Program-made: the position numbers and the translations under genes | Virus record (IMG/VR): IMGVR_UViG_3300006030_000149 | Span: 1-20,126 of that record | From: a virus | Reading direction: 5' to 3' (one strand) | Length of the DNA stretch: 20,126 nucleotides | Shown here: in pieces, positions 2,213-19,744 of the stretch | How positions within the stretch are numbered: position 1 is the first letter of the stretch | How the letters are laid out: each line of letters starts with the position of its first letter | Notes under the pieces: model-generated | Seen by the model: the letters and a program-made list of their open reading frames with translations, nothing else | Told to the model about the DNA's origin: nothing | Database searches by the model: none

Positions 2213-2412
2213 ACCTAGCAGCACTTGCTAGGATGGTGCAACAGCCAAAGCAGATTCCTGTTTTGTTGCAGCCGCCTGTAGCCCCTAAAATACAAGACAA
2301 TAACCAATCTATAGGTTTAGGGGTCATCAATGAAACAAGTCCAAATGATCTGCGAGGCTCGCCTAGTGCTCCCCGAAAGCGCGGCCGACCAAGAGCCAAC
2401 CGGAAAGATTGA
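2185..2412 (+). CDS. Possible small basic-tailed protein with AT-hook-like end
   Basis: A 75-codon frame between portal and protease. It can start at TTG 2185, which overlaps the portal stop as TTGA, or at ATG 2197 (71 residues); neither has a clear Shine-Dalgarno site. The frame reads plausibly: a helical N-terminus, a Pro/Gln middle, and a C-terminus APRKRGRPRANRKD containing the RGRP core of an AT-hook. It overlaps the first 83 nt of the prohead protease in another frame. The same TTGA overlap starts the acetyltransferase at 12474, so this coupling style occurs elsewhere in the cluster. The alternative is that 2189-2329 is only a regulatory leader, since the TTG also lies inside a TTGACA hexamer. 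Function unknown; DNA binding is inferred only from the basic tail. Confidence 0.4.
   Translation: MTTVMVNTKYLAALARMVQQPKQIPVLLQPPVAPKIQDNNQSIGLGVINETSPNDLRGSPSAPRKRGRPRANRKD
2214..2232. repeat. Perfect 7-bp inverted repeat (hairpin or operator-like)
   Basis: CCTAGCA (2214-2220) and TGCTAGG (2226-2232) are exact reverse complements around a 5-nt loop. The repeat lies just downstream of the possible promoter at 2185-2212. There is no T-run after it, so it is not a terminator. It could be an operator, a hairpin at the 5' end of a transcript, or chance. Confidence 0.4.
2282..2323 (+). promoter_or_regulatory. Hairpin that would sequester the prohead protease ribosome binding site
   Basis: CCCCTAAA (2282-2289) is the exact reverse complement of TTTAGGGG (2316-2323), extended by one G-U pair (2281 with 2324), around a 26-nt loop. 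The 3' arm contains the AGGGG that is the only Shine-Dalgarno candidate for the protease ATG at 2330. When folded it would block initiation. A ribosome translating the 2185-2412 ORF would pass through and open it, so translational coupling is a natural reading. The pairing is seen directly; the regulation is inferred. Confidence 0.4.
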
Positions 2413-3124
2413 GGCTACCGTTACAACTTGGGGACCACGCGAGGGCGCAGACGGTCGCAAGTTTTTTTATAAGCCGGAAGGCTTCATGCAATGGGCTAAG
2501 GAATTCGCTGAGACTAAGCGGCCGCTGCCCATGTTTGTCAATCACAACGCCGATGCAATGCCGGTGGGTGAGTGGACTGCATTCGAATTCACTGACAAAG
2601 GCATGACCGCAGAAGGTCGCCTTTACATCAATACCACTCAAGGGTCTGATCTTTACCAAGTGATGACCGAATCCCCGGCCATGTTCGGAGGCGTCTCTGT
2701 AGGAGCATACGCAGATGAATACTGTATGGTCGATGGTGAAGGCAATCCCCTCCAAAGCAGCAGCGATATGGAGGAAGGTTATTTCCAAATTACGCAAGGA
2801 GGACTCCGAGAAGTCTCCGTCGTAATGCACCCCAACAATCCAATGGCAGAAGTTCACAAGTTGGAATTCTTCCGACCCGATGGAACTGCTGACCTCAAGA
2901 TTTTGGAAAAGGCTCTGCGTGAGGCAGGGCTGTCCAAGAAAGATGCGGTCGCTGCCGCATCTACCTTCAAGAAAGTGTTGGAGCAGCGTGAGGTTGCTAT
3001 GACCGTTCTTGAAATTGCGCCGACTCAGGGTGAGCCTGATGCGGAAGCGACCGAAGCCGAACTTCTCGCAGCCTTAGAGCAGCGGGAAATTCTCAAGCAT
3101 CTTTCCAATCGTCTGAAAGGCTAA
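2330..3124 (+). CDS. Prohead (capsid maturation) protease, HK97 gp4 / S78-like
   Basis: 264 residues. This serine protease is packaged in the prohead, removes the delta domain of the capsid protein and degrades itself, letting the shell expand. The core shows the family marks: a start of the form IEATVTTWG, then FVNHN with the likely catalytic His 72, a strand MTAEGRLYI, and GGVSVGAY with the likely catalytic Ser 123, then GGLREVSVVMHPNNPMAEV. The C-terminal third (about residues 185-264) is helical and charged, as expected for a part that contacts the scaffold. The start is taken at ATG 2330 because AGGGG lies 6 nt upstream; ATG 2345 is an in-frame alternative. It sits just before the capsid gene, its substrate, with a 2-nt gap. 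Confidence 0.88.
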   Translation: MKQVQMICEARLVLPESAADQEPTGKIEATVTTWGPREGADGRKFFYKPEGFMQWAKEFAETKRPLPMFVNHNADAMPVGEWTAFEFTDKGMTAEGRLYINTTQGSDLYQVMTESPAMFGGVSVGAYADEYCMVDGEGNPLQSSSDMEEGYFQITQGGLREVSVVMHPNNPMAEVHKLEFFRPDGTADLKILEKALREAGLSKKDAVAAASTFKKVLEQREVAMTVLEIAPTQGEPDAEATEAELLAALEQREILKHLSNRLKG

Positions 3125-3126
3125 AA

Positions 3127-4482
3127 ATGTCTAAGGAAATCATCGAAAAGTTGGACGCAATCGAAGCGTCTACTCTTGCCAAGGCTGAAGAAATTGCAGC
3201 CAAGGCCAATGAGTCTGTTGAGGCTGCAAAAGCTGAACTGACCGAGAAGGTTGCGGCTCTTGAAGCCAAGATCGCCACGGTGCAAGCTCCCGCGATTCAG
3301 CGTCCTATCGCCAAGTCTGTGCGTCAGGATGTGAACCGCGCCGTTCGTGAGCAACTGAAGGCTTACGCCAACAGCGGTCGCACGTTTGAAAAAGAACTCA
3401 AGATGTTTGCCGATGAGAGCGAATATCTTGCATACATGAACGAAGCCTCTGCGCTGACCGCAGGCGGCGATGGTAAGGGTGGTCGCACCGCTTACGATCC
3501 CGTGTTCGTTGCTCTGCGTCTGTACAACCCGATGCGTGGTCTGTCGCGCACTGTGGCTACTGAAGGTTCGTCCTATCAGTTCCGGGTGAAGACGGGCAAC
3601 GCGGGCGCACAGTGGGGCTACGACATTCAGAACAACGGTACGACTAACGTCAACCCGACGACTGAAAACACCTCCATTTGGCAACTGGTGCTGAAGGACA
3701 TCAACGTGCAGTTCCCGATCCGTACCGCGGCTCTGGACGACATCGACGGTTTGGAAGCAAACGTGGTTGACGATATGTTGGCTGAATTCTCGCAAGCCGA
3801 GGCTCAGTCAATGATCAGCAACAACGACCAAACCGGCACGGGTTCTACCGTGTCCACTGGTGGTGCTGATGGTCTGCGCGGTCTTGATCAGTATGGTGGC
3901 GCAAATGCAACCTACACTGGTGGCACGACCTCTACCGCTGCATTCGGTACTTCGGGCACGTCCTCAACCTCCGGCTTGCACTCGCTTGCAACGTATGACC
4001 AATTGACCACGAACGGTTTTGGCACGGCTAACAACGTGACCTTCCAAGACGTTGTGAACATGGTCTATGCGCTGCCGCAGCAGTACTGGACGAAGGATGC
4101 CAAGTGGATGATCAACCCGGTCATGCTCTCGGCTATCCGTGGTCTGAAGGACGACAACAACACCCCGGTGTTTGAGCGTATGCACCCCGCTGAGGTGGAT
4201 GGCATCGTCGGCCGCTTGCTTGGATTCGATGTGGTGGTCAACAAGTACGTTGACACCCCCAACGCTTCTGGCGCTGCGGCAGGCACGACCTCCAAGTACC
4301 CCATGTTCTTCTGCGATTGGAGCCGGTTCCACACCATCGTGGACCGTCTGAACATGGTGATGCGTCGCTATGACCAGACGCTGCCGGGTTACATCACGTT
4401 CTTCGGCGAGAAGCGTCTTGCCACCTCGGTGCGTGACCCCTTCTCCGGTGTGCGTTATCGCTCGACTGCCACTGGTGCTTAA
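3127..4482 (+). CDS. Major capsid protein 1, HK97 fold, with delta-type scaffold domain
   Basis: 451 residues. Forms the icosahedral shell. Residues 1 to about 60 are an Ala/Glu/Lys-rich coiled coil (heptad-like repeats of AKAEE, AKAEL, LEAKI), typical of the delta domain that acts as internal scaffold in HK97-type phages. A linker to about residue 105 leads to ASALTAGGDGKGGR, where the shell domain begins; HK97 gp5 is cut after residue 103, so the geometry matches. Shell marks include NPMRGLSR, the E-loop-like QFRVKTGNA segment, SIWQLVLKDINVQFPI, and a C-terminal GYITFFGEKRLATSVRDPFSGVRY. A weak AAAGG lies upstream of ATG 3127. The gene directly follows the protease and is followed by a terminator-like hairpin and a second paralogue. 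Confidence 0.92.
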   Translation: MSKEIIEKLDAIEASTLAKAEEIAAKANESVEAAKAELTEKVAALEAKIATVQAPAIQRPIAKSVRQDVNRAVREQLKAYANSGRTFEKELKMFADESEYLAYMNEASALTAGGDGKGGRTAYDPVFVALRLYNPMRGLSRTVATEGSSYQFRVKTGNAGAQWGYDIQNNGTTNVNPTTENTSIWQLVLKDINVQFPIRTAALDDIDGLEANVVDDMLAEFSQAEAQSMISNNDQTGTGSTVSTGGADGLRGLDQYGGANATYTGGTTSTAAFGTSGTSSTSGLHSLATYDQLTTNGFGTANNVTFQDVVNMVYALPQQYWTKDAKWMINPVMLSAIRGLKDDNNTPVFERMHPAEVDGIVGRLLGFDVVVNKYVDTPNASGAAAGTTSKYPMFFCDWSRFHTIVDRLNMVMRRYDQTLPGYITFFGEKRLATSVRDPFSGVRYRSTATGA

Positions 4483-4488
4483 TGAAAC

Positions 4489-4511
4489 GGGGGGGCGAAA
4501 GCTCCCCCTTT
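4489..4511 (+). terminator. Stem-loop with GAAA tetraloop between the two capsid genes
   Basis: Seven G plus C (4489-4496) pair with GCTCCCCC (4501-4508) through one G-U pair, closing a GAAA tetraloop (4497-4500). The 8-bp stem is followed by TTTCT. The stem is very stable but the T-run is short, so partial termination or RNA 3'-end protection after capsid gene 1 is likelier than complete termination. Confidence 0.65.
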
Positions 4512-4533
4512 CTCCACTGCATTAGGAACGAAC

Positions 4534-5547
4534 ATGACCATCACCGAAAAAATTCTCGACGGGATCAAGCAAGCCATTCACGAACACAAGCGAGTCAACA
4601 TTGACTTGCGCGAAGCATCGGCAATCACGGGTTCCGGTTCGGGCATCGGTGGTCGCGTAATCTTTGATGATGCATTCGCTGCTCTGCGTTACGCCAACCC
4701 GTTCCGTATGGGTTCGCGCATCGTGCCGGTGAATGGTTCAGATATGCAATTCGTTGCCAAGACGGGTAACGCAACTAATCAAGCCGGTAACCCTTGGGGC
4801 TATCCGGTGCAAGACAACGTGGGTTCGCCCAACATCGACACAAGCATTTGGCAATTGCCGGTGCGTGCGATTACTGCTCAATTGCCCATTCGCTCGGCAG
4901 TTCTGTCGGACGTGAATGCGTTGCAATCGACCTTGGTTGAAGACCTCGCCCTTGAGTTTTCGCAACTTGAAGGCGCGTCGATGGCGATCAACAACGATCA
5001 AGCCGGTTCGACCACTACGACTACCGGCGCGACCTCGGGCTTGCGTGGTCTGAATATGTACCTTGATGGTGCGGCCTCGGCCTATGGTACCTCGGGCACG
5101 GCCATGACCAACGGCATCCACACAATTGCCACGCAGACTGCCACCACCTCGGTCAAGTACGTTGATCTTGTGGCCGCGGCCAGTTTGCTGCCGGGTCAGT
5201 ATTGGAGCTTGCCGGGAACGGCATGGCACATGAGTCCTGCTGTTATTCAGACATTGCGTAATCAGACCGATCTTCAGAATTTGCCCATCCTGATGGAAAC
5301 GGGCGATGAGGATGGCGGCGCGGTCACTCATGTGTTTGGGTGGCCTGTTATTCCCAATCCGTACCTGTCCTCTGCTTATCCGGTGTACCTTGCAAATTGG
5401 CCGCGTTTCTTGACCATTGGTGATACCGAAGAAATGTCGGTGCAACTGATGGAGCAAACGAAGCCCGGTTTTGTGACCATGTATGCGGAAAAGCGTGTTG
5501 TCAGTTCGGTGCGCGATCCTTTCGCGGGTGTTCGCATCAAAGTTTGA
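4534..5547 (+). CDS. Second HK97-fold capsid protein paralogue, without delta domain
   Basis: 337 residues, clearly homologous along its length to the protein encoded at 3127-4482. Shared blocks in order are EASAxT-GxGGR, the ALRxxNPxR segment, GSxxQFxxKTGNA, WGYxxQ, TSIWQL, PIRxAxLxDxxxL, EFSQ-E--SM-NNDQ, GLRGL, and a C-terminal PGxxTxxxEKRxxSVRDPFxGVR. The ASA block sits at residue 28, against residue 107 in the neighbour, so the coiled-coil scaffold is missing and the protein begins close to where mature capsid 1 would begin. AGGA (4524-4527) lies 6 nt before ATG 4534. It may be a vertex or minor capsid subunit, as T4 gp24 is to gp23, or a duplicate under divergence. It is intact, with no frameshift or stop. 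Confidence 0.88.
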   Translation: MTITEKILDGIKQAIHEHKRVNIDLREASAITGSGSGIGGRVIFDDAFAALRYANPFRMGSRIVPVNGSDMQFVAKTGNATNQAGNPWGYPVQDNVGSPNIDTSIWQLPVRAITAQLPIRSAVLSDVNALQSTLVEDLALEFSQLEGASMAINNDQAGSTTTTTGATSGLRGLNMYLDGAASAYGTSGTAMTNGIHTIATQTATTSVKYVDLVAAASLLPGQYWSLPGTAWHMSPAVIQTLRNQTDLQNLPILMETGDEDGGAVTHVFGWPVIPNPYLSSAYPVYLANWPRFLTIGDTEEMSVQLMEQTKPGFVTMYAEKRVVSSVRDPFAGVRIKV

Positions 5548-5556
5548 GGTTAAGCC

Positions 5557-6243
5557 ATGTCGGTGAATTCCTACTTGACCTATGGCGGGCCTTACCTTGC
5601 CCCAACGCGCAATCCGTTCAACTATTCCAAGTTTGAACAGATCAATCGGGACAACGTAACCCCGTGGCTCACGCTTGAGGAAATTACCCAACAACTCAAC
5701 CTATTCAATGATGAGTCTCAAGACACCTATCTGACGGGTCTTGAGTTGGCTACGCGGCAAGCTATTGAGGACTTAATTGGCTTGCCGATCATGCCGGTGA
5801 CCTATCGGGTGTACTACAACGCCAATGCGTTGTGGGGCATTCCGCTTGCGCTTGACCTTCCCGAAGTCAGCCCCGGCACCACCGGCGGCTACAACTGCGG
5901 AAACAACGGCATCACGATCAATCGCGTGGGCTATTGGAACGACGATGAGCCTTCGGTATTTGTGCCATTGGCTTCAACGCAATACAGCTACGACAACAGC
6001 GGCAACAAGGTGATCCTTGCTGACCTCCCAAGCAGCATCAATTACTTCAAGACCGCGCCAGTTGAATGCGAATACACGATTGCGCCAAGTCCCTTGGGGG
6101 CGTATCCCGTGATCAAACAAGCCGGTCTTTTGCTTCTCACGCACCTCTACAACAACCGCAGCAACAGCACCGAAGGAATGCTTAGAGACATTCCTTTTGG
6201 CGTGACGGCACTCTTGCGTCCTTACAAGCCACTTGTCATGTGA
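5557..6243 (+). CDS. Head-tail connector (gp6-like / phiE125 gp8-like)
   Basis: 228 residues. Members of this family form the ring that attaches below the portal. After a variable N-terminus the helical core begins at LTLEEITQQLNLFND, with the pattern of a short helix pair (EEI..QL, then TGLELATRQAIEDLIGLPI) seen in gp6-type connectors. A beta-rich middle (residues about 75-170) follows, with a Tyr/Asn-rich loop insertion. The C-terminal helix ends in DIPFGVTALLRPYKP, a typical ending for this family. GAGGT, overlapping the stop of the capsid paralogue, lies before ATG 5557. Position right after the capsid genes fits the role. The longer-than-minimal size comes mostly from the beta-rich insertion. 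Confidence 0.75.
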   Translation: MSVNSYLTYGGPYLAPTRNPFNYSKFEQINRDNVTPWLTLEEITQQLNLFNDESQDTYLTGLELATRQAIEDLIGLPIMPVTYRVYYNANALWGIPLALDLPEVSPGTTGGYNCGNNGITINRVGYWNDDEPSVFVPLASTQYSYDNSGNKVILADLPSSINYFKTAPVECEYTIAPSPLGAYPVIKQAGLLLLTHLYNNRSNSTEGMLRDIPFGVTALLRPYKPLVM

Positions 6244-11827: not shown

Positions 11828-12477
11828 CTACCACAATGACCGCGCTGAATAGCGCGAACATTCGACACGCCGAATTCGTCAAGTTGTCTGTTGGCAATCC
11901 GGCATCTCCAACGATCTACACATTCTGCAATGCTGCTGCGCCGATTACGGTTGGTGGCAATACATTTAGTGCATTGGGTGCATTGCTGTCTGTTGGGGAA
12001 GTGCAGCGTGATGTCAAGGCCACATCGTTTGATATGTCGATTGCCCTGACTGGCATCGATCCAAATTACGTTGCGCTGATTCTTTCAAGTGACATCAAAG
12101 GCAGCACCGTAGAGGTTTGGCGCGGTTTTTTAGATTCAAACAATCAAATTATCACCACGCCGACGACACAATTCTTTAAGCGGTGGCAGGGCATCATCAA
12201 CAACGTCAGCATCACTGAAGACTTTAACGAACAGATGCGGCAGCGGGTGGCGACTTGCAACATCACTTGCTCAAGCATGAGGCGTGTTTTAGAAAATCGC
12301 ATTGCAGGCATCAAGACCAACAAAACCATTTGGCAGTCGATCTATTCGGGCGACACCTCCATGAGTCGAGTCGATGCCATCTCTAACACCTATTTTGACT
12401 TTGGCGGCAAACCTAACACCGGAAGTATTTCGGAGCCGGGGGGTAGTCAAGACATACCGGATGTGCAACAAAATTGA
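11824..12477 (+). CDS. Tail tip / hub protein in the gpL position
   Basis: 217 residues. The first 120 residues read as a beta-barrel hub domain of the kind found in gpL-, DUF1833- and DUF2163-type tail proteins: AEFVKLSV, then ITVGGNTFSALGALLSVGEVQ, SFDMSIALTGIDPNYVALIL, GSTVEVWRGFLD and FKRWQGIINNVSI. A second, shorter part has TCNITCSSMRRVLENRIAGIKTNKTIWQSIYSGDTSM. Two Cys (near 145-150) recall the metal-binding Cys of gpL, but a full four-Cys set is not visible. It starts on an ATGA overlap with the previous gene and stops on a TTGA overlap with the acetyltransferase. A six-G run near 12438-12443 lies in its disordered C-terminus. Confidence 0.65.
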   Translation: MTTTMTALNSANIRHAEFVKLSVGNPASPTIYTFCNAAAPITVGGNTFSALGALLSVGEVQRDVKATSFDMSIALTGIDPNYVALILSSDIKGSTVEVWRGFLDSNNQIITTPTTQFFKRWQGIINNVSITEDFNEQMRQRVATCNITCSSMRRVLENRIAGIKTNKTIWQSIYSGDTSMSRVDAISNTYFDFGGKPNTGSISEPGGSQDIPDVQQN

Positions 12478-12920
12478 TCCGCGAAGCTTCAAAGTTTGAT
12501 TTGGATGCGTGCGTTGAGATGATGCGTAAGTACGCATCAGAATCACCCATCTTCAAACTTCGGCAAGCGGCTTTCCATGACAATCAATATGTAAGGCATT
12601 TCCTTTTTAGTCTGATTGCCGGTCGCGGATTCATTTTTGTCGATAGCAACTATCGTGGGATGCTTGCGGCGATTGTGACTCCTAACATTTGGTGTCCCGG
12701 CGTGCATGAAGTAAAAGAGTTAGCTTGGTGGGTTGATCCTATGTGCAGAGATGGAACAATTGGCGGCAAGCTGTTCATTGCCTATAAGACAAGAGCAGAA
12801 AGATTGATTAAAGAAGGTCGAGCGCAAGTAATGAGCGTATCCCTTATGGCAAACAGTCCATCAATAGATTTAGAAGGGCGCGGATTCAAGCGAATTGAGT
12901 CCACCTTCTGTAAGGAATAA
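12474..12920 (+). CDS. GNAT-type acetyltransferase
   Basis: 148 residues. The start is TTG 12474, within a TTGA overlap of the previous stop; it gives the opening MIREASKFDLDACVEMM, which matches the usual first strand and helix of GNAT proteins, so TTG is preferred over later ATGs. The acetyl-CoA binding region is visible: strand ELAWWVDP (residues 82-89), then RDGTIGGKL (92-100), the Arg-x-x-x-x-Gly-Gly pattern of motif A, the following helix, and a strand QVMSVSL. The C-terminus has GRGFKRIESTF, like the usual GF ending. The substrate is unknown; the place between tip genes suggests a virion or tail-tip protein, or a cargo gene. No Shine-Dalgarno site is seen, so translation is presumably coupled. 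Confidence 0.72.
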   Translation: MIREASKFDLDACVEMMRKYASESPIFKLRQAAFHDNQYVRHFLFSLIAGRGFIFVDSNYRGMLAAIVTPNIWCPGVHEVKELAWWVDPMCRDGTIGGKLFIAYKTRAERLIKEGRAQVMSVSLMANSPSIDLEGRGFKRIESTFCKE

Positions 12921-12923
12921 GAA

Positions 12924-15900
12924 ATGCCATCATCAATTGTTCTTGCGGCGGCATACGCAGTCGGTTTTGTAACCGAGATGTATGCATCAAGTATGTTGTT
13001 TGCTATGGCGGCAAATTTCGCCATTTCCTACACCGTCAATCGTGTATTTGGCGCAAAGCCTCCGCGTCAGCAGGACAACGGCGTAAGGCAGCAGATTCCC
13101 CCAAGTGCAGACAACTCTATCCCTGTCGTCTATGGCGACGCATGGATGGGCGGCACGTTTGTTGATGCGGTGCTGACCTCTGACAACCAAGCGATGTATT
13201 ACGTTTTGGCAATCAGCAACATTTCGCCAAACGGTCAGTTTACTTTCGACACTACGCAGTTCTACTACGGTGATCGGCTTATTACGTTTGCGCCGGGAAC
13301 CAATCAAGTTGCTTCATTGACTGACGGCGCGGGTAATGTTGATACAAAGATCAACGGCTATCTTTACATCAATCTCTATACCTCAACCGCAGCAGGAACC
13401 ATCACAACAGTTTTGGGCACTGCGCCGAATGTGGCGATGGGCGGCACTGACATACCTGTAAGCCTGCGGTGGCCCTCATCGGGACGGCAGATGAACGGGC
13501 TTGCGTTTGCCATCGTCTATCTTAAATACAGCACTGATGCAGGCTCTACCGGCCTTCAGCCTTTGACCTTCAAAGTCAAACACGCATTGAACGGCACCGG
13601 CGTTGCAAAGCCCGGCTCTGTCCTCAAGGACTATCTGACCAACACTGTCTATGGCGGCGCGGTGCCTTTGGCAAACGTCAACACCACGGCTTGCGACGAT
13701 CTTGACACCTACTCAGACCAAACAATCACCTACACACCTTCGGGCGGTGGGTCAGCCACTCAAGCGCGGTATCGAATCAATGGTGTGCTTGATACGGGTG
13801 AAAGCGTACTCAACAACATTGAAAATATCCTGATTGCCTGCGATTCATGGATCGGCTATCAAGCTGAATCGGGTCAATGGGCACCGATCATCAATAAGGC
13901 AGAGTCCACGGGCTTTGCGTTCGATGACACCAACATCATTGGCGACATTCGGGTGTCGGCCACCGACATCACATCAAGCATCAATCAAGTTGAGTTGTCG
14001 TTTCCTTGGAAAGACAACAAAGATAAACCCGGCTATATCTTCCTCGATCTAGCGGTACTCAATCCTTCGCTGCTCTATCCGAATGAGCCGGTGAACAAGT
14101 ACACCGCGACCCTGAGCATGGTCAATGACTCTGTTCAGGCGCAGTACCTCGGGAATCGGATGTTGGAGCAAGCCCGCGAAGACCTGATCGTTTCCTTCAA
14201 CACGGCATACCCCGGCATTCAGGTCAATGCGGGCGATGTGGTGAGCGTGACCAACTCTGCTTATGGTTGGACGAACAAGCTGTTCCGCGTCATCAAAGTC
14301 AATGAGACTTCATTGCCTGACGGCAATCTTGGTGCTCGATTTGAATTGAGCGAATACAACGCTCAGGTTTACGACGACGCAAGCATCACAGCATTTGCGC
14401 CTGCGCCAAACAGTGATCTTCAATCGGGCTATTATTTCCCTGCACTTCCTGCGCCAACTTTTAGCGATCAGCAACCGGCGCTTTCTCCTCCGACTTTTAG
14501 CGTTACCTGTCAATTGCCAAGCACGGCGCGGGTCACAAGTGTGACTCTGTATTACACCAAGTCGGCAACCCCCTCAATAACAGATTGGGATGTGTGGAGC
14601 GTTCAAACGCCGATCAATGAAGCAGTGTTTCCTGCCGGTGCTGCAATTAAATTTAGCAATGTCATTGTTGGATCAGGCACTTATTATTTTGCGTTTTCAG
14701 TCAGCAATGAACTTGCTACATCTCAAAAATCTACGACTTCTGCTTCGTTCTCTTGGGCACCAATCATTTCATCACTGATTGCTACTTCATGGTCGCCATC
14801 AGTAATTCAGGTTCCCCGCACAGGGGGGGTGCCAACATTCACAAATATCAATCCCCGTTTGTATCTGACATTTGGTGGTGTTCAGGTCAATTTTGTTACT
14901 TCGCAAACCGATAGTGATGCGGCATTTGTAAACAACACATGGCGCATTGGTAACTCAGCAACGACTGGAAACGGCGACATCACCACCACGGGTGGATTGG
15001 TGATGGGCGCAATTACAGATGGTGGCGTTTATGCACAGTGGGGCGACCCCACTGCCATGACAAGTTCGCCTGCTCTTTTGTCGGTTCCTGCCCGATACAA
15101 AGACAACACGGGCACCATTTATCAAACAAGCTTCAATTCGCTTCAATTCATTTTTCTTGATAGTGGCATTGTCGGTCCAACTGGTCCGACCGGCACTATT
15201 GGTCCAACTGGCAATCAAGGGGCAACAGGTGGGCAAGGCCCAACCGGGGCATCGGGTCCGACCGGCACTCAAGGCCCAACGGGTAGTTCGGGTCCGACAG
15301 GTGGATCAGGTCCGACTGGGCCTTTGGGTCCAACCGGCACATCAGGGCCAACTGGCGCGACTGGCGTAACTGGTCCAACTGGTATTGGCGGGAATCAATA
15401 CGCCACCGCATATCTATATCAATGGTCGCCAACGCAACCCGGAAATCCTTCGGGATCATCTACTTATGTTTGGGCAAGCGGTTCTAATACTTCGTATACG
15501 GGCGGCAGTGGATGGTCTGTTACGCTTTCGGCCAATCCCGGAACCCCCGGCTTATATTTGTGGATTGCTTCAAAAGCCGTTGCTGATGTTGGTGGCGTAA
15601 CAAGTACATCTGTCAATTGGACTAGCGGTTTTTCTGTCGTTGCTCAATCTGCCAATGGCACAAATGGCAGCACTGGTCCCACGGGTATCAATGGAAGCAA
15701 GACGGCGCGACCTGTTGTTTATCAATGGGCGGCAACCATTCCATCAGGTCCAACTGGCACATCCACTTATACATGGTCAAGCGGAACATTTACGCCTGAT
15801 CCTCCGGGATGGAGCTCCACAATTACATCTTCTCCATCTCCGGGGTACACATTGTGGGCAGCTACCGCATCAATTATTGATAGCGCAACAGCGACAACAA

Positions 15901-16955
15901 CAACAATTAATTGGACAACCGCAAGCATTTTGGCGGCGGGATACGCGGGGATTACTGGTCCGACTGGCACAGTGGGAGCAACTGGTGCCACTGGCGCTAC
16001 CGGCGCACAAGCTCGGTTAATGTTTGCGCGTATTGCCAATAATCCCGTTGCCGTAGCAGGCACAGTTACGGTAAGTGGCGACAACAAACCGACAAGCGGA
16101 CAAAGTTCTGCTGTTTGGGGTGCGGCATTTGCTGTCACTTGGTATGACTCCGATCCCAATCCGTCGAGTAATGATTCTCTTTATCAATCAGATGGTATTT
16201 ATAACGGGGTCACAACCGTTTGGTCCGCACCTTACATTTCTGCGTTAAAGGTCGGCACGCTATCAGCTATCACAGTCAATACGGGTGCCTTGACTGTTCA
16301 AGACACGATCACCACAAGCTCGACTGGAAAAATTCTTGGTGGACAGACTGACTACAGCACAGGGACTGGTTGGTTCTTGGGTTATAGCGGTGGTGCCTAT
16401 AAGTTTTCGGTTGGCTCTAGCACTCAATCTGTCAAATGGACTGGTACGGCACTTGAGGTGACTGGAAACATTTTCGGTGTTGGCAAGGCTGAATTCACTG
16501 GCGACAACCAAGATTTATTTGGTTCAGTTGTAAAGGCCACATCAACTGGAACGGCTTACATTGCGCTCTATGGAACATCTTCGTTGACATTTGGGCGCGG
16601 TGCTTCGGGAGTTGTCAGTGGGTCTAGCGGTGTCGGCGTTGTCGGTTCGGCAGCTGCTTCAGGAACTCGTGCAGGGGTTTTGGCATTTGCCACAAGTGGT
16701 GGTACTACTGCGCTTGAAGTCAGTGGCGGCGCAATGATCATTGACAACTCGACATTGGTTGCCAATTTGAATGCTGATTATGTTGATGGCAAACACGCAT
16801 CAGCATTTGTGCAAGTTGCAAGTGGCGCGACAAATGGACAGTACGTTTACTATGTGAACAACAATACTGCTCCAAGTGATCCAAATAATCGCGCCGCATG
16901 GATTAGGGTTGCGACCAACGATGGTGGATATGTGTACTTCCCCGGCTATCTGTGA
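12924..16955 (+). CDS. J-like tail tip protein with collagen-like and repeated Trp modules
   Basis: 1343 residues, probably the tip/central fibre that binds the host. AAGGA lies 7 nt before ATG 12924. Layout: residues 1-45 hydrophobic, Ala-rich; [12 protein letters not shown] near 66, a mark of J-type proteins; a tip-attachment domain to about 490; a Fn3-like domain about 494-611; a collagen-like stretch 751-822 of 24 Gly-x-x triplets, mostly GPT; two homologous Trp-rich modules (about 824-925 and 926-1010), each with a YQW, a GW and a LW block; short collagen-like GATGATGATG; a shaft-like region with [16 protein letters not shown]; and a C-terminal tip with [14 protein letters not shown] at about 1282, common in phage fibres. 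No NlpC/P60 or I gene lies before it. Confidence 0.85.
15174..15389 (+). repeat. Collagen-like Gly-x-x coding repeat in the tip protein
   Basis: Twenty-four in-frame triplets with Gly first, most of them GPT alternating with GAS, GTQ, GSS, GGS and similar. The DNA is correspondingly periodic at 9 and 18 nt (GG-CC-AC). Such segments form triple helices in trimeric fibres. Confidence 0.9.
15393..15950 (+). repeat. Tandem duplication of a Trp-rich module in the tip protein
   Basis: Module A (15393-15698) and module B (15699-15950) encode related sequences: [21 protein letters not shown] against [21 protein letters not shown], then [13 protein letters not shown] against [10 protein letters not shown], and TSVNWTSG against TINWTTAS. 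The DNA has diverged considerably, so the duplication is not recent. Confidence 0.75.
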
Positions 16956-17318: not shown

Positions 17319-17807
17319 ATGGCGATCTTCAATAAGAACACGCTTGCCCAAGTCAGCGGGTTCGACAATCCAATTCTTGCCGGTGAACTGGTTTGGAACC
17401 AAAAGACCTACTGGAATCTTTCGTTCACCAATTGCGCTACCGGCCTGCCGATCCCTCTGACCGGCGCAACGCTTGACGCTCAGATCGTCCGGCGACAAGT
17501 CAGCAACATCGTAGACACCCGCAACGGTCTGACATTCGACATTGCGGATTACACGCCGACCCCCACGCCGGTCAACCTCACGATAAGCAACCGCAATGAC
17601 GCGGCAGGCACGTTCACGCTTGTCATTGACGATTCCACTTGGTCGCTGATCAACAGCGATCCTCAGCTAGAAATCAACGCTCAGGATTGCGTGGGTTTCT
17701 CAGGTCGCATCAAGGTTTCCTTCCCCGCTAGTGGCAGCACGCCGCAGGATGACGCAATCATCTTCCTGCTGTTCCTTGTTCGCTCCGACGGGGTGGTGGT
17801 GGTATGA
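17319..17807 (+). CDS. Probable fibre adaptor or baseplate-type structural protein
   Basis: 162 residues, beta-rich. AGGGGA lies 5 nt before ATG 17319. The pattern [36 protein letters not shown] resembles the first sheet of Ig-like or BppU N-terminal domains, in which a natural-language-like turn LTGA precedes a strand. The second half has [15 protein letters not shown] and a strand-rich end SGRIKVSF...[14 protein letters not shown]. It overlaps the collagen fibre gene as ATGA, so the two products are probably made in similar amounts, which suggests that it anchors the fibre to the tail tip. The family is not firmly recognised. Confidence 0.6.
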
Positions 17808-19744
17808 GCAACATCAAGGTTGTCGTCCAAGACGGTAACAACGTCAATCTTCAGGTTACTCCCACGCCTGATGTAAGCGTCAGGCTTGACCGCAGCGTTT
17901 CCGGGGCCACGGGACCAACCGGGCCTTCGGGTGCGCTTGGCCCAACCGGCCCTTCAGGTACTGCCGGACCCACGGGCGCTACGGGTGCCCCCGGCCCTGC
18001 GGGTGGGCCTACTGGTCCCACGGGCGCTACGGGCAGCACAGGCAATACCGGCCCGACCGGAAGTGTTGGTGCAACCGGCCCGACTGGGGCGCAGGGCATT
18101 CAAGGCGCGACCGGCCCCGCGGGAAGCATTGGGCCTACGGGTCCGACCGGCAATCAAGGCGGGCAAGGAACAATTGGCCCGACCGGCCCGCAGGGCGTTC
18201 AGGGCATCCAAGGCATTCAAGGCGATCATGGGCCTACCGGACCGCAAGGCCCGACCGGACCACAAGGGGTGGCAGGCCCGACCGGCGCGATTGGCCCTAC
18301 CGGAGATATTGGACCTACTGGACCGACTGGTACACAGGGCGCTCAAGGCAATATCGGCCCGACCGGACCGCAAGGAAACCAAGGCATTCAAGGTGACCAC
18401 GGCCCAACAGGACCGCAGGGCGCTACAGGCCCGACCGGAGCGCAGGGAAACGTAGGCGCAACCGGCCCAACTGGCGCTCAAGGGGACACTGGGCCTACGG
18501 GACCGCAGGGCGTACAAGGTATTCAGGGTGACCAAGGCGTGCCCGGACCGACCGGCCCGATTGGGCCTACAGGTTCTCAAGGCAACGTAGGCCCGACTGG
18601 TCCTACAGGCGATGCCTCAACCGTCCCCGGCCCGACCGGCCCAACAGGCCCGCAAGGTATTCAGGGCGACCACGGCCCCACCGGTCCCCAAGGTATTCAG
18701 GGCGATCAAGGCTTTGTTGGACCTACCGGCCCTCAAGGCTCGACAGGCCCGACTGGACCGCAGGGCAACCCCGGTGCGGGCGGCACGGTTGCGTATTGGG
18801 GATCGTTTTGGTCTACGCAAGATCAAGTCGCGGCGGCAGCGGATACGGCTTATTCAATCACACTTAACAACACCGATCCTGACTCAAACGGGATTAGCGT
18901 TGTCTCAAATAGCCGCGTTACGTTCTCGCAGGCGGGAACCTACAGCCTGACGTTTTCAATTCAGTTCGTCAACACAGACACGCAGATTCACGATGTCAAC
19001 GTGTGGCTGCGGAAGAATGATTCGGGCAGCACTGGCGACATTCCCGATTCCGATACGCGACTGAGTATTCAGCAGCGTCACGGCAACGTGGATGGGTATG
19101 GTCTGATGACTGTCAACTTCGTGCTGAAGTTGGCGGCAGCAGATTACATTGAAATGATTTGGTCTACGACAAGTACGACCACATCAATTCAAACTGTTCC
19201 CGCAGGGACAACGCCGGTTTCACCGCAAATTCCCGGCGTTATCTTCACGGCTACCCAAGTTACCTACACGCAGAACGGCCCGACTGGTGCTGCCGGTCCT
19301 ACGGGTCCACAGGGCTTTGTTGGTCCCACTGGTCCACAGGGACCGCAAGGTATCCAAGGCATTCAAGGGAACACCGGGCCTACAGGACCGACCGGGGATC
19401 AAGGCGCAATCGGCCCGACTGGGCCAACGGGGGCGCAAGGCATACAAGGTGTTGTCGGCCCGACCGGACCAACGGGTGACCAAGGCATAGCAGGCCCGAC
19501 CGGGCCTACCGGAAGCGCGGGTGCGGTTGGCCCCACCGGGCCTACGGGAGATCAGGGAACCCAAGGAATCCCCGGCCCGACCGGCCCTCAAGGGGTACAG
19601 GGCATTCAGGGTATTCAAGGAAACCCCGGCCCGACCGGCCCTACAGGTGATGCCTCGACGGTTCCCGGCCCTACCGGTCCAACCGGACCCGCAGGAACCG
19701 GGGGCGGCGGCGGTGGCAGTGCATTTGCATGGTTTATTGTTTAA
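17804..19744 (+). CDS. Collagen-like tail fibre with internal C1q/TNF-like domain
   Basis: 646 residues. An N-terminal beta segment (1-33, [19 protein letters not shown]) probably anchors it. Residues 34-327 are collagen-like Gly-x-x triplets rich in GPT, GPQ, GIQ and GDQ. Residues about 328-491 are a globular beta domain ([40 protein letters not shown]) with the look of a C1q/TNF jelly roll. Residues 492 to about 637 are a second collagen segment, ending in a Gly run and AFAWFIV. Collagen-like trimers make thin, stiff fibres; the middle domain may set the trimer or bind a receptor. It begins on an ATGA overlap with the adaptor gene. Thr in the third position replaces hydroxyproline, as is usual in bacterial and phage collagens. 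Confidence 0.85.
17903..18784 (+). repeat. First collagen-like repeat region of the fibre gene
   Basis: A long run of in-frame Gly-x-x codons with recurring DNA units such as GGCATTCAAGGC and GGCCCGACCGG. The phase breaks at GDASTVPG (18608-18631), where four extra residues interrupt the triplets. Confidence 0.9.
19277..19717 (+). repeat. Second collagen-like repeat region of the fibre gene
   Basis: The same Gly-x-x vocabulary as the first region resumes after the globular domain, including GIQGIQG and a second GDASTVPG interruption (19646-19669), and it ends in a poly-Gly run. Confidence 0.9.

Follow-up and report, generated by a model that had tools for sequence, protein, structure and literature searches.

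Two capsid genes in the head operon

Most dsDNA phage genomes are without paralogs (PMC5694885), and the introduction of a 2025 paper names T4 as the single virus in which two distinct HK97-fold proteins have separate structural roles (PMC12407261). The viral DNA analysed here (20,126 nucleotides of the IMG/VR record IMGVR_UViG_3300006030_000149, hereafter the window) carries two capsid genes in tandem, A and B, and raises the question of what a second shell protein does in such a head. Gene A (positions 3127–4482, + strand, 451 aa) runs from an ATG at 3127 to a TAA at 4480–4482 and gene B (4534–5547, + strand, 337 aa) from an ATG at 4534 to a TGA at 5545–5547, both with intact frames. The head operon, all on the + strand, is ordered as terminase, portal, S78 protease, A, B, connectors and tail genes. 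It comprises the C-terminal nuclease part of the large terminase (1–753; Pfam PF20441, 8.5e-29; 5' end beyond the window), the portal protein (785–2188; PF04860, 5.9e-61), a prohead maturation protease of the Peptidase_S78 type upstream of A (2330–3124; PF04586, 3.5e-06) and a head-tail connector that adjoins B downstream (5557–6243; PHROG_40 head-tail adaptor, 3.6e-14). The tail operon includes an acetyltransferase-like gene with a TTG start (12474–12920; PHROG_1249), and two tail proteins (12924–16955 and 17804–19744) contain long collagen-like Gly-Pro-Thr repeats.

From its sequence and context, A is an HK97-fold major capsid protein: it matches Pfam Phage_capsid (PF05065, E 3e-26, 92.9 bits against a cut-off of 24.2) and PHROG_10 major head (3.7e-31), it lies in a terminase-portal-protease-capsid operon, and its profile finds the capsid of RcGTA by sequence (E 3.7e-10). 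The assignment of B to the HK97-fold capsids comes from its homology to A, a match to PHROG_10 (8.5e-10) and a fold match; the B of the window reached no Pfam match, while that of a relative (L016) did (2.6e-18). The two proteins are 39% identical over 349 columns of the shell (pairwise BLASTP, E 3e-68), and in a profile-profile comparison residues 104–444 of A align with residues 24–336 of B (probability 100%, E 6e-87). The first-pass annotation, which described two intact HK97-fold capsid paralogs in tandem, is thus borne out, and every motif that it listed is common to A and B. Moreover, A and B agree at 65 of the 75 columns that each family conserves, over a span that begins with the first shell motif and ends with the C-terminal EKR motif, leaving just 10 fixed differences.

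A shared shell domain and different N-termini

The HK97-fold shell domain of A, delimited by the alignment with B, the Pfam match and the profile match, spans residues 104–451 (3436–4479, + strand). The preceding residues 1–103 (3127–3435, + strand) form a helical region at the position of an HK97-type delta domain, to which a scaffold-like role can be tentatively ascribed. The alignment of A with B begins at residue 104, so that the coiled-coil region of about 100 residues is missing from B, in agreement with the earlier claim that only the first protein possesses it. The AlphaFold2 model of A, of low confidence (pLDDT 47.8), predicts long helices for this region. It had also been proposed that B simply starts near the mature N-terminus of A, but the situation is different: B begins with a conserved, B-specific short helix of about 25 residues (residues 1–25, 4534–4608, + strand; helix 3–17 in the model), with the consensus M.ITEKIL.GIKQAI.EG..V.IDL.EAS.

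Structure prediction, suggested in the first-pass annotation as a check, gave for B an AlphaFold2 model (pLDDT 66.6) with the HK97 fold. This model matches the RcGTA capsid in Foldseek (E 3.5e-16) and the capsids of cf-PICI EcCI2 and RcGTA with a VIA Z of about 20; the chains 9bje and 9bix score about 16, as do many HK97-fold chains. By motif content and predicted fold, B is a true shell-fold protein. The RcGTA capsid (6tb9/6tsu) and the cf-PICI EcCI2 capsid (9gyi) are the closest solved relatives, of A by profile and of B by fold; unlike the A/B pair, RcGTA uses one capsid protein for both pentamers and hexamers (PMC7296036).

Conservation and origin of the pair

Relatives were collected from IMG/VR and from contigs of bacterial MAGs by similarity to family members, so the resulting counts speak for retention of the pair within the family and give no measure of its frequency among all phages. 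The first-pass annotation had pointed to relatives with a decayed or absent second copy as evidence that would speak against its reading; instead, A is followed by B on one strand in each of the 402 loci that could hold both genes, among which 316 A-B stretches are distinct. Apart from one contig (L123, described below), the loci with a single gene are truncated by a contig end, 14 of them after A and 5 within B or shortly before it. All 288 complete distinct B genes are unbroken and A is likewise intact, with median dN/dS values of 0.147 for A and 0.161 for B, indicating purifying selection on both. The presence of the pair in all relatives with room for it shows that this is not a local duplication, and the view of B as a real, conserved shell protein that always accompanies A is well supported.

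The group carrying the pair consists mostly of freshwater phages and has hundreds of members. Within INPHARED, B was found in one phage record only, that of the freshwater Methylophilaceae phage P19250A (KX815270), the sole cultured relative in this collection, in which A and B (59% and 56% identical to those of the window, respectively) stand in tandem with matching gene order and B is annotated as hypothetical. The marine OM43 phage Venkman, reported to be close to P19250A (PMC8163748), was rejected as a relative for the pair, as it has a different head module with one annotated capsid gene. A possible exception to the conservation of the pair is a contig from a Polymorphobacter MAG (L123:1-753), in which the end of A and the hairpin described below are followed by an ORF of PHROG_26742 and bacterial genes, with no B; this copy of A is truncated by the end of the contig, which could be either a chimera or what remains of a prophage. 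In two other loci (L038:5704-6246 and L040) an ORF of 180 aa is inserted in the A-B gap; by eye it resembles a GIY-YIG homing endonuclease (MFYTYIHFRQDDGIPFYVGKGKGRRH), and it gave no Pfam match above the cut-off.

A maximum-likelihood tree sets A and B jointly apart from six single-capsid phages with a support of 100/100, and within it B forms one clade (99/100). No other sequence comes nearly as close to A or B as they do to one another, and the tree gives no sign of exchange between the copies. The exact root is unsure, as the outgroups are long branches. Since B is monophyletic and single-capsid relatives fall outside A and B, the data are best fitted by one old duplication, which would predate the radiation of the lineage and would not have been followed by exchange.

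A conserved hairpin between A and B

Between the two genes lies a terminator-like hairpin, absent from the first-pass annotation and here considered a putative A-B attenuator (4489–4513, + strand; MFE -21.9 kcal/mol, z -3.8), composed of an 8-bp stem, a GAAA loop and a following TTTCT. Every one of the 316 distinct loci has a hairpin downstream of A, and in 304 of them it is terminator-like; the latter figure compares with 60 of 287 (21%) downstream of B and 90 of 948 (9%) for random windows. Its sequence varies (181 different versions) while the structure stays, which argues for a function. Some of these hairpins are without a T run; that of the window, whose T run is short, was not picked up by a simple terminator scan of the + strand, and an Rfam search gave no match. 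The conserved hairpin implies that B is transcribed below the level of A, and the A-B gap usually offers scant space for a promoter, so that B would be expressed by read-through. In T7 the same logic is seen, with a terminator following capsid gene 10. The hairpin may also stabilise or protect the mRNA of A.

Codon usage gives a second indication of relative amounts. The bias is strongest in A, followed by B, the connector and the protease (median ENC over 186 loci of 38.2, 41.7, 46.6 and 48.7, respectively), and it is weaker in B than in A in 201 of 222 loci. Together with the hairpin below A, this weaker bias points to B as a minor component, while its still fairly strong bias means that B may not be rare. 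On these genomic signals, B is probably made in clearly fewer copies than A.

Additional modules carried by B

In some relatives B carries extra modules. Of the first 256 loci surveyed, 11, spread over at least three different subgroups, have an extended form in which the frame of B opens about 100 codons upstream and so includes a PHROG_2859 domain of unknown function (in frame in L016:5875-7212; also in L002, L007, L019, L020, L024, L025, L151, L156, L168 and L204); in L068 a short PHROG_2859 remnant is present on B. Elsewhere, PHROG_2859 heads long capsid products, protease-capsid fusion-like, of S-CBS1 and Roseobacter phages, with capsid genes of about 836–974 codons in the cyanophage S-CBS1 (L280) and the Roseobacter phage CRP-821 (L281). 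The fact that it leads such products indicates that PHROG_2859 belongs to head assembly. Furthermore, in two loci (L348:2852-4105 and L354:4390-5646) about 60 residues are inserted in B between the motifs GNATN and NPWGY. The insert falls in the predicted E-loop, is not found in A and matches both PHROG_21413 and a family of tail fibres. The length of A is 437–474 residues (296 genes), with no such extension or insert, while B reaches 412 residues, or 482 with the extension. As these modules occur on B alone, it seems that B can accept decorations not seen on A.

Comparison with known two-protein shells

The closest parallel is the gp23/gp24 pair of T4: there, too, one phage encodes two HK97-fold paralogs, of which the second has a far shorter N-terminal part. 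In T4, gp23 loses a propeptide of 65 residues and gp24 just 10 residues; gp24 forms the vertices, is thought to have been duplicated from gp23 and can be bypassed by mutants of gene 23 (PMC9958956). The differences are also clear: the T4 proteins are about 17–20% identical (PMC12407261, PMC9958956), against 39% for A and B, and T4, a large myophage, uses separate scaffold proteins and the gp21 protease, whereas the lineage of the pair has siphophage-type genomes of about 39 kb (P19250A), a delta-type region on A and an S78-type protease. B resembles gp24 in being a paralog of the major capsid protein in the same phage. No link to T4 emerged at the sequence level: gp24 is absent among the PDB sequence matches of the B profile, and the engineered T4 nanocage 7mh2 appears among the Foldseek matches of the B model at the general fold level only; B is not claimed as a member of the gp24 family.

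A second parallel is the family 2B encapsulin of Streptomyces lydicus, whose two HK97-fold paralogs, Enc1 and Enc2, co-assemble in one shell (PMC12407261). Unlike A and B, they build a cellular nanocompartment with mixed pentamers of variable composition, without portal, packaging or delta domain. An identity of the pair as a two-component encapsulin was rejected, as the neighbours of B are genes for terminase, portal, protease, connectors and tail.

Where B may sit in the head

The first-pass annotation offered two readings of B, a vertex subunit by analogy to T4 gp24 or a component of a mixed shell dependent on the scaffold of A, and the present data support it in part. With moderate confidence, we propose that A is the major shell protein and B a minor co-assembling paralog, most likely at the pentameric vertices, in a gp23/gp24-like arrangement of independent origin. 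In the corresponding assembly scheme, the N-terminal region of A would act as a built-in scaffold and nucleate the procapsid, and would presumably be trimmed by the adjacent S78-type protease. B, which arose by an old duplication and retained the HK97 shell fold without the A-type N-terminal region, would be made in a smaller amount owing to the hairpin between the genes, and would join the A-nucleated procapsid in smaller number. There it would take the sites not filled by A, the vertex pentamers being the likeliest, with A in the hexamers. That B is a subunit of the virion shell is highly probable; that it is specific to pentamers, for which T4 serves as a working analogy, is evenly balanced. 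Weighing against this proposal are the small number of fixed differences between A and B, the fairly strong codon bias of B and the alternative role of the hairpin in mRNA stability. A fuller version, in which, across a widespread phage lineage, A would form the hexamers and B dedicated, independently evolved, scaffold-free vertices, in some members also a site for surface or internal modules, is put forward somewhat more tentatively.

The first alternative, an unlikely one that nevertheless ranks ahead of the others, is a mixed shell in which B replaces A in hexamers or pentamers without fixed positions, tuning stability or head size. The near identity of A and B at the jointly conserved columns means that their interfaces may be compatible, the S. 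lydicus proteins do form mixed pentamers (PMC12407261), and 9bje and 9bix are among the matches of the B model, although at a score shared with many other HK97-fold chains. Against free mixing, two distinct families universally kept with no sign of exchange suggest distinct positions, as do the inserts found in B only, and the attenuator suggests fixed unequal amounts. Less probable still is a placement of B only at special sites, for example around the portal vertex or in an assembly-initiation ring, rather than in pentamers. The position of B next to the connector genes and below the terminator, the conserved B-specific helix at its N-terminus and the domain, known from protease-capsid fusion proteins, that some relatives carry on B would be in line with such a role, but B keeps the whole set of shell-domain motifs, which a collar protein would not need. 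There is a slim chance that B works outside the virion, in an alternative particle or a non-shell function: it shares the lack of a delta domain with encapsulins, but all relatives encode it within the head operon, and it retains its shell motifs under purifying selection. Finally, a recent or relic duplication without function, to which the tandem position might lead, is already contradicted by the intact B genes (0 of 288 broken), their dN/dS of 0.16 and their one old origin, and has a negligible probability.

Significance of the pair

The open-licence papers searched for two or duplicated phage capsid genes contained no description of the A/B pair. This appears to be a second, apparently unrelated lineage with a two-shell-protein head, an arrangement for which T4 has until now been the one documented case. 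If the proposal is true, it would be the second viral case of a two-protein HK97 head after T4, and the evolution of a specialised pentamer would become testable in a small system, as would the assembly of a shell in which one subunit has no scaffold domain. It would also provide a likely identity for a gene that is kept by every examined member of the group and is listed as hypothetical in P19250A.
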